Positions 8,680 through 62,665 of a stretch of DNA of 64,000 nucleotides are shown piece by piece; position 1 is the first letter of the stretch, and each line of letters begins with the position of its first letter. A model generated the notes under the pieces. It was not told the DNA's origin and did no database searches. It saw nothing but the letters and a program-made list of their open reading frames with translations. The DNA lies in the NCBI GenBank assembly GCA_900315095.1, contig OMXS01000002.1, forward strand, positions 124,001 to 188,000. The letters run 5' to 3'. This DNA is from an uncultured Prevotellaceae bacterium (GTDB lineage: Bacteria; Bacteroidota; Bacteroidia; Bacteroidales; Bacteroidaceae). Position numbers and translations under genes: made by a program.

Positions 8680-8738
8680 CAACTTTTTTCCGTCATTCTT
8701 TACTCCTTCGCTTCTTTTTTCATATTACGTATTTTCTC

Positions 8739-8870
8739 AAAGCATACCTTTCATGTTCCAAAAGCATGTCTTTCGCATCTCAAAGGTATACCTTTCGGGT
8801 TGCAAGAGATGGCTTATGACGGAACAAAGTTAATAACATTGTTGAACAAAGTTAATAAGATTGTTAGCTC
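8739..8870. repeat. 22-bp-period intergenic array, array 1 (about six units)
   Basis: AAAG cores begin at 8739, 8761, 8782, (8804 as AAGAG), 8826 and 8848, spacings of 21-22 bp. The first units are of the AAAGGTATACCTTT type (a 14-bp palindrome at 8782-8796 region); the last two are of a different type, AACAAAGTTAATAA followed by an ATTGTT tail. Both types share the same phase. The array occupies most of the 370-bp gap between the ABC-F promoter and the htpG terminator; the rest (8871-8940) shows nothing recognisable. Confidence 0.8.
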
Positions 8871-8940
8871 AAATGTATGCTTCTTGTAAGTCGTTGAAAA
8901 TCAGTTGCGTTTCAAAAGCGTATTATTGGGAAAGTAAAAA

Positions 8941-19131: not shown

Positions 19132-19335
19132 AAAAAAGGCCGTACCGATGATGTGATGAAACTCCGAGCTGAAATGATTTGAGAACTCTCCGTCTTTGTA
19201 ATCCACCGGCTTTACAGCTTAGGTTCTTTAAAACTTTATATGGCCCGCCATCAACAAGAGAAGTCTTCTCGGTTTTCTGTATTATTTGATGAGTATCCCG
19301 ATCTATACGATACGGCCACCATTTTTCCCTTATTC
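19132..19335 (-). ncRNA. ssrS: Candidate 6S RNA (ssrS-like), rod-shaped structured RNA
   Basis: Between thrC and ribE, with no open frame. On the minus strand it starts about 8 nt after a perfect promoter. A 10-bp closing stem joins 19317-19308 (GGCCGTATCG) to 19147-19138 (CGGTACGGCC), a span of 180 nt. Inside, GATACTC (19297-19291) pairs 6/7 with GAGTTTC (19164-19158), and GAGAA, CT and CTCT (19270-19257) pair with GGAGAG/TTCTC (19191-19181), continuing as an irregular rod with internal loops and a terminal loop near 19235-19215. TTTTTTCCTTTTTTT follows the closing stem, as in a terminator. Length (about 200 nt), single-rod shape and strong own promoter fit 6S RNA. A ribE leader is the main alternative. 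Fold made by eye. Confidence 0.55.
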
Positions 19336-28453: not shown

Positions 28454-28870
28454 ATTGTTACTTACTTTGTGCAAAATATTGATGTTACACTTTTAACTCT
28501 CATACACAATTATAGACTCAAAACCTCACCATTTCTGAACTCAAACTGGAATATGATGATTATCTATCCAACATCCTTTGACTCTTGCTGTTGAAATGTA
28601 GGGCATAATCTGCATCAGTATCCCCTCTTAGTTCCATCTAGGAATACATTCTTCAGATTTATGCAGTTCTTTATGTAAATTGCCATATTCTGACCACAAA
28701 GATAACAAAATAGTTTCAAACAACAATAAGTTTGTGCCAACAACTACAACATTTTATGATAATTTCAGGATGCGTTTTTATTATTCCGAGGCACAGGTTC
28801 TATGGTTTCTCGTGATAAGGAATGCTGACAAGGAGGGCGTTTTGTATCTTGTTGGTTTTCAGGGATATAT
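28454..28870. other. Long AT-rich upstream region of the two-gene membrane operon
   Basis: About 400 bp with no convincing gene. A minus-strand TATCTTTG (-7 element, 28704-28697) is the best promoter candidate for the operon and would give a leader of more than 200 nt. An 85-codon plus-strand frame at 28680-28937 runs into the repeat array and is judged spurious. Nothing else recognisable. Confidence 0.45.
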
Positions 28871-28879
28871 ATATGGTGG

Positions 28880-29015
28880 AACAAAGTTAATAACTTTGTT
28901 AGACAATGTTATTAACTTTGTTGAACAATCTTATTAACTTTGTTCGACTATCTTATTAACTTTGTTCCGTCACTTGATATGTTTGGGAAGGTCACTTGAT
29001 ATAAGTGAGGCTACA
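28880..29015. repeat. 22-bp-period intergenic array, array 2
   Basis: It opens with the 21-bp palindrome AACAAAGTTA-A-TAACTTTGTT (28880-28900 region). CTTTG cores then recur at 28894, 28916, 28938 and 28960, exactly 22 bp apart, each preceded by TTATTAA or TAATAA. Two CACTTGATAT units follow at 28971 and 28993, again 22 bp apart. The array lies between the DUF4861 gene end and the upstream region of the membrane operon. Confidence 0.85.
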
Positions 29016-29056
29016 AGAAGTGGCTTTTGAGGGTGCGGAAAGACGTTAGTGGTGCG

Positions 29057-34404: not shown

Positions 34405-34495
34405 GTTATCCTAAATACAATCTTTTTACCTTAAAAAACTTAAACCTATTGAGATTAGTGCTCCCCTCTGAGAAGAGCGGAGCGCTTGTTATTTT
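34405..34495 (+). ncRNA. Candidate small RNA of about 90 nt
   Basis: Predicted from the orphan promoter to a terminator-like hairpin: AGTGCTCC (34457-34464) pairs with GGAGCGCT (34479-34486) and, inside a C-C mismatch, CTCT pairs with AGAG around a GAGA tetraloop. TGTTATTTT follows. The 50 nt before the hairpin are unstructured and A/T-rich (CTTTTTACC, CTTAAAAAACTT), as expected for a seed region. No start codon opens a plausible ORF inside it. Antisense to no annotated gene. Judged by eye only. Confidence 0.5.
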
Positions 34496-34556
34496 ATAAT
34501 GACTGAATGTACGAATGATATGCTTCGGAGTGCGATTGATGTCCTTTCGCCTTCCC

Positions 34557-34667
34557 AAAGATGCCTTTTGACACCCTCAAAGGTATACAACTGAGAGCCG
34601 AAAGGTATACAACTGAGGGCTTCAAAGGTATACAATCGGGAGCCGAAAGGTGTGCTTCTGATTACTT
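34557..34667. repeat. 22-bp-period intergenic array, array 3 (five units)
   Basis: AAAG cores start at 34557, 34579, 34601, 34624 and 34646 (spacings 22, 22, 23, 22). Three units carry AAAGGTATACAA followed by a CTGAGAGCC-like linker. The last unit overlaps the mltG stop codon at 34662. The array lies 60-70 bp after the candidate small RNA. Confidence 0.88.
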
Positions 34668-35687
34668 GATGCCTCTCATGTTCAGCGCATCGGCATATTT
34701 CTTGGCATTTTGCATATGCTCTTCGTATGTCTTTGCGAAGTTATGCGTGCCGCTGAAGTCTTCCTTTGCGCACATGTAGAGATAATCGTGGTTGGCATGA
34801 TTGAGCACAGCATCGATTCCGGCAACGGTCGGAATGCGGATAGGACCTGGAGGAAGGCCCTTGTTGCGGTATGTGTTGAACGGGCTGTTCACCGATAAAT
34901 GCTCGTGATATATGCGCTTAAGTTCAAAGCGTTTCAGGGCGAACTTCACCGTAGGGTCTGCCTGCAGGGGCATGTCTTTGGCAAGTCTGTTAAGATACAT
35001 CTCCGCTATCATGGGTTTCTCCGCATTGTTTGAGGTCTCCTCGTCGATAATGCTTGCAAGCGTGATAATCTGTTCTTTAGTCATTCCCAATGCTTCGGCT
35101 TTCTGCTGGCGTTCGTTGTTCCAGAACGCGCGGCTCTCCTTTTGCATGCGGTCGAGCAGTTCTTTGGTCGTGATTGTCCAATAAACATCGTATGTGTTAG
35201 GAATAAACATGCAACCAATGGTGAGCGTGTCAAGTCCGTAGCGCGAGCAAGTGGCGGGATCGGAGAATGCTTTCTGAAGTTCAAGAGAGTCAACTAGCAA
35301 CTTCTTTCCCAACACCTCAGCCATCTTGTCCATAGTCCTAACCGATGGAATGGTGAGGTGTAAAGGTGTCTCTGCTCCTTTCTTCAGGTTCCTAAGGAAT
35401 CTAAAGGCTCCCATTCCCGACTCCAGCGCATATCTTCCAGGTATGATGTTGTCGGCATAGTCGCTATGTCTTGCAAGCATAGAGAATGCCGCCATTCCCG
35501 AGGAAGTTGTGATGGTGTCGAGTTTCTCGTAAATGGAGTCGATGTTATCATCGTTGTCTATATAAAGACAATGTGTCTTCCCGCCTTTCGCAATAGATGA
35601 GAAAAGATAGAAATAGCCCACACCCAGGATGAGCGCTACACATATAATAAAAGGTATAATGAACCTTTTGGATGTTATCTTCTTCAT
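34662..35687 (-). CDS. mltG: Endolytic murein transglycosylase MltG (YceG-like)
   Basis: 341 aa. One N-terminal transmembrane helix (residues about 11-30, FIIPFIICVALILGVGYFYLF) anchors it in the inner membrane; the rest is periplasmic. Seen: a LysM-like region near 35-120 and the YceG catalytic core with ASIIDEETSNNAEKPMIAEMYLNRL near 215-240 (catalytic Glu), MPLQADPTVKFAL near 245-257 and NSPFNTYRNKGLPPGPI near 272-288. It cuts nascent glycan strands and is thought to set their length. Its promoter is probably the minus-strand TAATTTTG at 35729-35722. The stop codon lies inside repeat array 3. Confidence 0.95.
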   Translation of the reverse strand: MKKITSKRFIIPFIICVALILGVGYFYLFSSIAKGGKTHCLYIDNDDNIDSIYEKLDTITTSSGMAAFSMLARHSDYADNIIPGRYALESGMGAFRFLRNLKKGAETPLHLTIPSVRTMDKMAEVLGKKLLVDSLELQKAFSDPATCSRYGLDTLTIGCMFIPNTYDVYWTITTKELLDRMQKESRAFWNNERQQKAEALGMTKEQIITLASIIDEETSNNAEKPMIAEMYLNRLAKDMPLQADPTVKFALKRFELKRIYHEHLSVNSPFNTYRNKGLPPGPIRIPTVAGIDAVLNHANHDYLYMCAKEDFSGTHNFAKTYEEHMQNAKKYADALNMRGIK

Positions 35688-51837: not shown

Positions 51838-51982
51838 CTAATAAAGTTGCTCAAAAGATAATTTTTGTGCAAATATTTTTGATTGTCTAATCGCTAAAAA
51901 CGTGTTTTTTATATTTCTTCACATAAAGCGTTTTGAAACGAAGACGAAACATCCATTTGTATTGTGATGCTCTTCTGTCTCC

Positions 51983-52095
51983 CAATGGTATATGTTTGGC
52001 ATTGCGAAAGGGCACCTTTGACAACGCCAAAAGGCACCTTTGACACCTCGAAAGAGCATCTCTGAGGGTGCGAAAGGTCATCTTTCGCTTTTCTT
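51983..52095. repeat. 22-bp-period intergenic array, array 4
   Basis: AAAG cores start at 52007, 52030, 52051 and 52073 (spacings 23, 21, 22), preceded by a related AATGGTATATG unit near 51984. Units read AAAGGGCACCTTTGACA, AAAGGCACCTTTGACA, AAAGAGCATCTCTGA and AAAGGTCATCTTTCG. The array sits in the 426-bp divergent region between the yidE-like gene and mutA, upstream of both promoters. The rest of that region (51838-51980) shows nothing else. Confidence 0.85.
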
Positions 52096-56330: not shown

Positions 56331-56403
56331 TCATTGTATTAAGCACCAATTATGAGTGCCCCCAATGTCCTGTTATAGTACCACTTGTATCTGTATGGTT
56401 TTC

Positions 56404-56560
56404 AGATGTATACAAATGAGGTAACAAAGTTAATAACATAGTCGAACAAAGTTAATAACTTTGTTGAACAATCTTATTAACTTTGTCTCGGCACTTGATA
56501 CCTCTTGCATCCTCACTTGATGCTTCTTGTATCCTCACTTGACACTTCTTGTACTATAAG
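56404..56560. repeat. 22-bp-period intergenic array, array 5 (about seven units)
   Basis: AAAG cores at 56426 and 56448 belong to AACAAAGTTAATAAC units; CTTTG cores at 56459 and 56481 to the inverted form TTATTAACTTTG; CTTG cores at 56504, 56526 and 56548 belong to CACTTGATACCTCTTG-type units that begin at 56492, 56514 and 56536. All spacings within each class are 22 bp and the classes follow without loss of phase. The array fills much of the 465-bp gap between mutB and pgk; 56561-56680 shows nothing else. Confidence 0.88.
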
Positions 56561-56686
56561 AAGATATTTATTGGTCGGCAAACATCTGAATGGTTGGATA
56601 CATAACATGTCTTTCTCTTCTATACATGATGACTTCTTGCAGATGTTTTTGTGTTTGATTTCATAGTTGCATTTGGTTAAAACAAA

Positions 56687-62537: not shown

Positions 62538-62576
62538 TATGTCTTGAACTCCCGTTTATATACCTTTTAGATACTC

Positions 62577-62665
62577 AAAGACCCTTTTTCATCATGCGAA
62601 AAAGGGTCTTTGGGCATGTCAAACATGCTCTTTGGGAAGCCGAAGCATAATGTTTGGCATTATGA
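62577..62665. repeat. 22-bp-period intergenic array, array 6 (four units)
   Basis: Units begin at 62577 (AAAGACCCTTTTTC), 62599 (AAAAAGGGTCTTTGGGC), 62621 (AAACATGCTCTTTGGG) and 62643 (AAGCATAATGTTTGGC), each 22 bp apart. The first two units are mutually complementary (AAAGACCC with GGGTCTTT) and could form a terminator hairpin for panE. The array ends 3 bp before the stop codon of the convergent channel gene. Confidence 0.85.

Follow-up and report, generated by a model that had tools for sequence, protein, structure and literature searches.

Half-sites set one or two helical turns apart and bound cooperatively on one face of the DNA are the basis of ParR iterons, Arc/MetJ operators and plasmid iterons, which sit at one or a few loci near their gene. 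Among dispersed intergenic repeats, the nearest described systems that we found include the REP/BIME elements and their RAYT transposases (PMC2817692, PMC3733652, PMC6006769, PMC12306157, each available in part); BIMEs have regularly spaced REPs of alternating orientation (PMC2817692). The BrickBuilt MITE minisatellite of Porphyromonas gingivalis consists of dispersed 23-nt tandem repeats whose number varies among strains at shared places; in the available part of that article it has one repeat sequence with a leader and a tail, and is strong in Porphyromonas only, with weak tail hits in two Prevotella species (PMC4596501). A literature search, weak in that its coverage of subscription papers was partial, returned no description of a family-wide 22-bp array.

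The arrays that we describe here resemble REP/BIME elements in their short palindromic units, which lie in gene spacers, occur in many copies per genome, are species-specific and change fast. They differ from them in a fixed 22-bp period kept with unlike units across a family, in needing no RAYT gene, in unit arms of weak complementarity, and in the absence (by eye) of a terminal tag common to the genomes compared. With BrickBuilt they share dispersed tandem repeats of similar length in related Bacteroidales species, but, as far as the available part of that article goes, they are set apart by the period of 22, many unit sequences, no fixed leader or tail, and an extent over a whole family. 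Unlike protein-ruled operator and partition arrays, they occupy tens of spacers per genome and have no known protein. REP/BIME and BrickBuilt are the nearest systems that we found in print. In the available text both are defined by sequence, and neither shows a period that is kept throughout a family while the sequence is free to vary; we therefore class the arrays as a variant of dispersed intergenic palindromic repeats.

The window, i.e. the whole stretch of 64 kb analysed (C13:124001-188000), belongs to a genome of 3.24 Mb in 58 contigs. The preliminary description had reported AAAG cores at 34557, 34579, 34601, 34624 and 34646 with a fixed 22-bp period; on reading the sequence the positions are right, and the period holds at three of the steps (22, 22, 23, 22), the third being 23. 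A palindrome noted near 8782 is also there, with AAAGGTATACCTTT beginning at 8782. The further proposal that six intergenic loci share a 22-bp register with differing units was confirmed in each part: lag-22 runs were found at all six (8721-8889, 28857-29003, 34575-34641, 51977-52087, 56398-56581 and 62583-62665), the unit sequences differ among them, and they lie between genes. Tandem Repeats Finder, which demands high similarity between copies, gave period-22 rows at four of the six (8822, 28887, 34579, and 56423 and 56492).

No strand is assigned to the arrays. The one at 8721..8889 has four AAAG/AAGAG-type units, then two AACAAAGTTAATAA units and one TCA-type unit, and the one at 28857..29046 (run to 29003, remainder by eye) has four AACAAAGTTAATAA-type units together with CACTTGATA-type units. 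About five units lie between two divergent genes at 51977..52095, AACAAAGTTAATAA units are followed by CACTTGATACTTCTTGTATCCT units at 56398..56581, and the array at 62560..62665 (run from 62583, start by eye) is between convergent genes. The array at 34510..34661 has about seven units (extent by eye), of which the stretch from 34557, singled out earlier, is the best part, and it abuts the stop codon of a YceG-like gene (PF02618) on the minus strand at 34662..35687, which we used for the orthology test. On its other side is an sRNA-like gene resembling BTnc060 of Bacteroides (RF04184; 34360..34488, plus strand; 57.6 bits, E 1.5e-8, under the gathering score of 228.9) with a strong hairpin at 34405-34500 (z -3.76), and the array is the meeting point of the 3′ ends of these two genes. 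The stretch 34420-34500 has matches in many of the listed genus genomes. Elsewhere in the window, a Bacteroidales-1 (suggested 6S) RNA was found on the minus strand at 19132-19317 (146.9 bits). Ten array neighbours scanned in the window have no shared theme (they include HSP90, phosphoglycerate kinase, a tRNA synthetase, methylmalonyl-CoA mutase, an ABC protein and a permease). A CRISPR array was ruled out, as the units are contiguous variants without unique spacers (by eye).

The preliminary description had named a lag-22 autocorrelation scan against shuffled intergenic DNA as its check; run on one third of the genome and on samples of relatives, the scan left the periodicity standing. The genome sample comprised 61 pieces (1.04 Mb including 75 kb of N, about one third of the genome), five of which (L010-L014) had been picked around matches to paired AAAG-N5-CTTT, and genes were taken as the longest non-overlapping ORFs, with approximate 5′ borders and some wrong calls. 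Lag-22 runs (at least 26 of 44 matches) occurred in 41 of 413 intergenic segments (111 kb), the maximum among lags 10-60; the runner-up, lag 14, occurred in 22. Five dinucleotide shuffles of the intergenic segments gave 0, 0, 2, 0 and 2 runs, and the coding control gave runs in 3 of 783 ORFs (847 kb). With L010-L014 left out and the cut raised to 27 of 44, 34 runs were left in 943 kb. Furthermore, AAAG-N5-CTTT occurs twice with 6 to 10 bases between at six places genome-wide, and the spacing is exactly 9 (period 22) at all six, while its reversed control has no match in the whole genome. Smaller intergenic excesses were seen at lags 14, 21, 44, 16 and 23; we provisionally read lag 44 and part of lag 23 as the same arrays, and the rest as other minisatellites. 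Intergenic repeats whose periods are multiples of 7 or 8 (lags 14, 16 and 21) are also enriched in the sample of this genome. One long, rather uniform 22-bp minisatellite (L023 5380-5724, unit ACATAAAGACATGTTTTGTTGG, about 15 copies) is unlike the short mixed arrays, and two near-identical TCA-type arrays are present at unlinked places (L023 5815 and L060 18386).

Spacing of short words in intergenic DNA gave the architecture of the unit. Counts of TCA-to-TCA distances, whose median is 57.5, rise to 152 at 22 and to 99 at 44, and there is a lower peak of 118 at 7; TCA-to-TGA distances peak at 14, 36 and 37, and TGA-to-TCA distances at 8 and 30. These spacings make TCA-N11-TGA-N5 the commonest unit, a dyad whose arms vary (AAAG, GGAG, CTTG, GAAG, TTAG and others). 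In 136 chained TCA-type units the arms are slightly complementary: the mean is 1.71 of 4 positions within a unit, for which the null is 1.29 (sd 0.08), and 1.81 across the spacer, for which it is 1.34 (sd 0.11). A second, more uniform unit, AACAAAGTTAATAACTTTGTTG, is present in one to four copies in 14 elements of the genome sample. Dyad symmetry was tested on 74 arrays from this genome, other family genomes and the close relative G177 by permuting the 22 columns, which retains period and composition. The repeated dyads of the preliminary description were recovered in that 56 of the 74 arrays score above this null (p 2e-9; best dyad score 0.56 against 0.49), and 18 do not exceed it. A second dyad centre 11 bp away is present, but it follows from period and dyad and is no separate evidence. 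With dyad units in a 22-bp register, symmetry centres and their surrounding half-sites recur every 11 bp, all facing the same side of the helix.

Units flanking the AACAAAGTTAATAA units keep the register and are mirror-imaged. Around the AACAAAGTTAATAA units, information declines outward unit by unit and roughly symmetrically, at about 0.7, 0.45, 0.25, 0.13 and 0.07 bits per base in three species (14, 22 and 15 elements; in the two relatives most were retrieved with the motif). Arrays with these units thus have no fixed ends, as the information tapers around them. Units AACAAAGTTAATAACTTTGTT and GTATACCTTTG both contain TAnnTTTG, which we take to be the Bacteroidetes -7 promoter motif; several units of other species do not.

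To see how far the period extends, we sampled the family in 29 stretches (580 kb) of eight genomes, away from known matches; the contigs of five of the eight were known beforehand from TCA-pair matches, and the counted stretches exclude those matches. There were 21 lag-22 runs, with at least one in each of the eight genomes, and lag 22 is the strongest intergenic lag in this pooled sample also, lags 21 and 23 giving 3 and 2 runs; at least two of the 21 runs are simple sequence (L096 18398 and L087 636) and a few more look poor, and none was removed. The units are unlike those of this genome and many are dyadic (GGTAATCGAATTACC, AAACAATATTGTTT and GTGTATNTAGSCTACATACA); CAACGTGTTG and CACCCGGGTG come from stretches picked around matches. 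Outside the family, in 20-kb stretches, no lag-22 run was found in 30 stretches (600 kb, 66 kb noncoding) from 12 other families of the order and four of the class, nor in five stretches (100 kb) from other classes, with family being a kinship label of the search tool. A laxer cut (25 of 44) gave three lag-22 runs in other families, no more than at neighbouring lags. Within the sampled family, period and symmetry persist while the sequence turns over. The copy number of HU-HIG was rejected as a correlate: G383 and G390, of other families, have 17 and 21 matches yet no lag-22 run in three 20-kb stretches, and this genome has 7.

Each unit type that we tested is confined to one or a few species. 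Tandem pairs of complete TCA units number 41 in this genome, 35 in G177 and 5 in G193, with none in G210 or G156; reversed controls gave none in this genome and G177. In 150 other family genomes the TCA pair has 0 to 3 matches each (25 genomes with a match) and its reversed control also 0 to 4, and a few of the matches (e.g. in G008, G060 and G108) are 22-bp arrays of other units. Pairs of AACAAAGTTAATAA number 21 here, 26 in G177 and 26 in G193, and none was found in G210 or G156. In the named genome collection this pair was found only in Prevotella sp. UBA4330 and Prevotella sp. RGIG7809 (34 stretches; the records of this genome are possibly excluded), and no stretch in viral_contigs had it. 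Tandem pairs of AATAGSCTATT spaced at exactly 22 bp number 13 in G177, with none in the other 119 genus genomes searched, this genome included. The unit types spread as near-identical copies, which counts against a static binding site.

The end of the YceG-like gene shows how an array turns over between relatives. In G177, 84% identical over the region, about six diverged units stand against about seven here. G193 has no array, and its next conserved element begins within about 15 bp of the stop codon; G156 has an array of another unit, CAAAACCATAGGTTTTG, and G210 a lag-22 run of yet another, beneath an ORF drawn by the simple gene caller. The multiple alignment of this locus has a 23-base gap. 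Among 29 more mixed relatives that were fetched, three (L103, L104 and L106) have a lag-22 run there, so the position is not retained over long times.

Seven of eight mapped arrays of this genome have an array in G177, although three of the eight G177 loci had been fetched for holding the motif. Excluding these, four of five window arrays have a G177 counterpart, as does the 28.9-kb array by a separate side-by-side comparison. Reciprocal mapping, under the same motif-fetch bias, gave seven of seven from G177 to this genome, two of three from G193 to this genome, and one of one, two of two and two of two in the remaining directions. Two sites are empty: G177 lacks the 52.0-kb array and has 23 bp between the mapped flanks, and this genome lacks one G193 array (37 bp); no target duplication was seen by eye at either. 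At the 8.7-kb locus G177 has an array of partly different units, and at the 62.6-kb locus an array of an unlike unit, AAAATAGGCTATTTT, in the same place. In ten orthologous pairs, the alignment gaps of at least 15 bp measure 21, 22, 22, 44, 44, 44 and 44 bp (two pairs share a locus). Evidence for constraint on the arrays is mixed. Between this genome and G177, 373 of 761 array positions align with an identity of 0.81, compared to 4118 of 6176 at 0.87 for other intergenic positions and 52749 of 57063 at 0.88 for coding positions. The AACAAAGTTAATAA units are more conserved than the rest of their own loci in five of five comparisons (0.82-1.00 against 0.42-0.86), a result that the motif-based choice favours.

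Several explanations bear on where the arrays lie and how they fold. In this genome, array-bearing spacers are 14 of 66 convergent, 16 of 174 tandem and 6 of 85 divergent ones; in the other genomes and G177 they are 9 of 49, 11 of 135 and 5 of 56. Convergent spacers thus bear arrays most often, and at the YceG 3′ end G191, G225 and G227 have hairpin-like sequences (by eye) in place of an array, both as would be expected of transcription terminators, or of a substitute for them, at converging genes. Having an array, however, makes a 3′ end no less likely to carry a terminator-like hairpin: at the laxest cut 28 of 67 ends with arrays and 122 of 420 without carry one (P 0.045), and at the strictest cut 19 of 67 and 89 of 420 do (P 0.21), so the arrays do not replace such hairpins. 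Since hairpins coexist with arrays at 3′ ends we rejected the arrays as terminators, and consider such a role very unlikely. It is quite unlikely, too, that the units act at the RNA level, forming hairpins at the 3′ ends of mRNAs and so protecting or attenuating the transcripts. In tandem spacers of this genome the arrays are indeed closer to the 3′ end of the upstream gene (mean 0.30 of the way, P 0.002; elsewhere 0.42, P 0.18, no clear 3′ bias), they fold better than column-permuted arrays (sense z -2.32 here and -2.47 in other genomes), and the better folding of the sense strand in 18 of 25 tandem-gene arrays is a weak hint in the same direction. Yet antisense values are nearly equal (-2.06 and -2.40), arrays also lie between the divergent genes counted above, and among the dyad mismatches of tandem-gene arrays, read on the sense strand, G.T and A.C number 73:73 and 103:98; there is no G.U excess, and the equality is as expected of double-stranded DNA. 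Intrinsically curved DNA with A-tracts phased every 11 bp would account for AAA/TTT phasing above the permuted null in 25 of 27 arrays of this genome, but the phasing is not clear in other family genomes (AAA/TTT 10 of 17, p 0.07; AA/TT 9 of 26) and some of their units have no A-tract in the dyad; we rejected curvature as a general rule and regard it as most improbable. The chance that the arrays are ordinary slippage minisatellites, with a period of 22 by accident, is next to negligible: the 22- and 44-bp gaps between species and the other intergenic minisatellites of this genome (lags 14, 16 and 21) fit it, but the same period with unlike units in all eight sampled family genomes and in none of the other families sampled, the dyads, and the register kept across unit types do not. 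Terminators, RNA structure, A-tract curvature and slippage by itself all account for less than the reading that we favour, in which the arrays are half-site arrays at the DNA level, ruled by a putative family-specific DNA-binding protein.

The main and close rival of this protein-ruled reading is a selfish repeat of the REP/BIME kind. A family-specific enzyme other than a Y1/RAYT transposase would insert palindromic pieces, copied or expanded in steps of 22 bp, into spacers poor in genes; this enzyme would itself be the ruler, and the arrays would have no host function. We take this to be a real possibility that falls well short of probable. It would explain the unit types as dispersed copies (13 AATAGSCTATT pairs in one genome and none in the 119 others; 21, 26 and 26 AACAAAGTTAATAA pairs, then none), the near-identical arrays at unlinked places, and the abundance of arrays where insertion is likely tolerated, and decaying mobile copies, too, can show information that falls off outward. 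On the other hand, the ends of the elements are not sharp, the two empty sites have no target duplication (by eye), the arms of the units are weakly complementary, unlike REP hairpins, and positions are mostly shared by this genome and G177, if in only three of 29 mixed relatives at the YceG end. Moreover, the Y1 transposase (PF01797) has no match at E <= 0.001 in nine array-bearing genomes (G005, G033, G092, G150, G008, G009, G032, G060 and G062), and the 15 kb around the single copy in this genome, a RAYT-like gene in a 180-aa open frame at G000:C26:61492-61794 (L148), has no lag-22 run. RAYT, the known REP transposase, is therefore not required, and RAYT/REP mobilisation was rejected as a general cause. 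The RAYT-like gene of this genome may have its own repeats.

The preliminary description, which had expected a bound protein array or nucleoid-organising site, is supported in its period, dyads, intergenic location and unlike units, while its bound protein and nucleoid role stay putative. We prefer the protein-ruled reading, tentatively and at somewhat less than an even chance, judging from patterns in the sequence. In its favour are the 22-bp period, the dyads, a register that holds across unlike unit types, and the restriction to one family among those sampled, together with the information gradient around AACAAAGTTAATAA, the balance of G.T and A.C mismatches, the seven of eight positions shared with G177, and the gaps of 21, 22 and 44 bp. 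Against it, the arrays are less conserved than other intergenic DNA between this genome and G177, and species-limited unit types spread as copies, as expected of a selfish repeat. One array of this genome is absent in G177, one G193 array is absent here and G193 lacks the array at the YceG end; 18 of 74 arrays lie within the dyad null, and the YceG locus has both a 23-bp step and a 23-base gap.

Under the protein-ruled reading, an oligomeric DNA-binding protein of the family would occupy consecutive half-sites along one helical face, side by side. It would start from the best-conserved central units, where these are present, and spread outward, and it is this side-by-side binding that would set the 22-bp ruler. 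The protein may act in the spacers between gene ends, e.g. in chromosome packing or supercoil insulation. Units would be gained and lost in 22-bp steps by slippage and copied between loci, and the unit sequence would change fast, presumably together with the specificity of the protein.

A wider proposal is that all that the family-wide set of arrays conserves is its geometry, a 22-bp register with a dyad at each 11 bp, and that the recognised sequence is repeatedly replaced in step with a fast-evolving putative protein. The arrays would then correspond, in bacteria, to satellite arrays whose binders co-evolve with them, and would form a new class of element that organises or insulates the chromosome; we consider this conceivable but on balance doubtful, and that the arrays form a kind of their own seems likewise rather unlikely at present. 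Dispersed palindromic repeats usually take their definition from a sequence and a transposase, whereas the trait conserved here is a length of 22 bp together with symmetry, and it spans one family, including Prevotella, with neighbouring families negative in our sample. As length and geometry are constant, something must measure 22 bp. Identifying that ruler, whether a protein or an enzyme, would show either how the chromosome is organised at gene ends in this family or a new way of making repeats.
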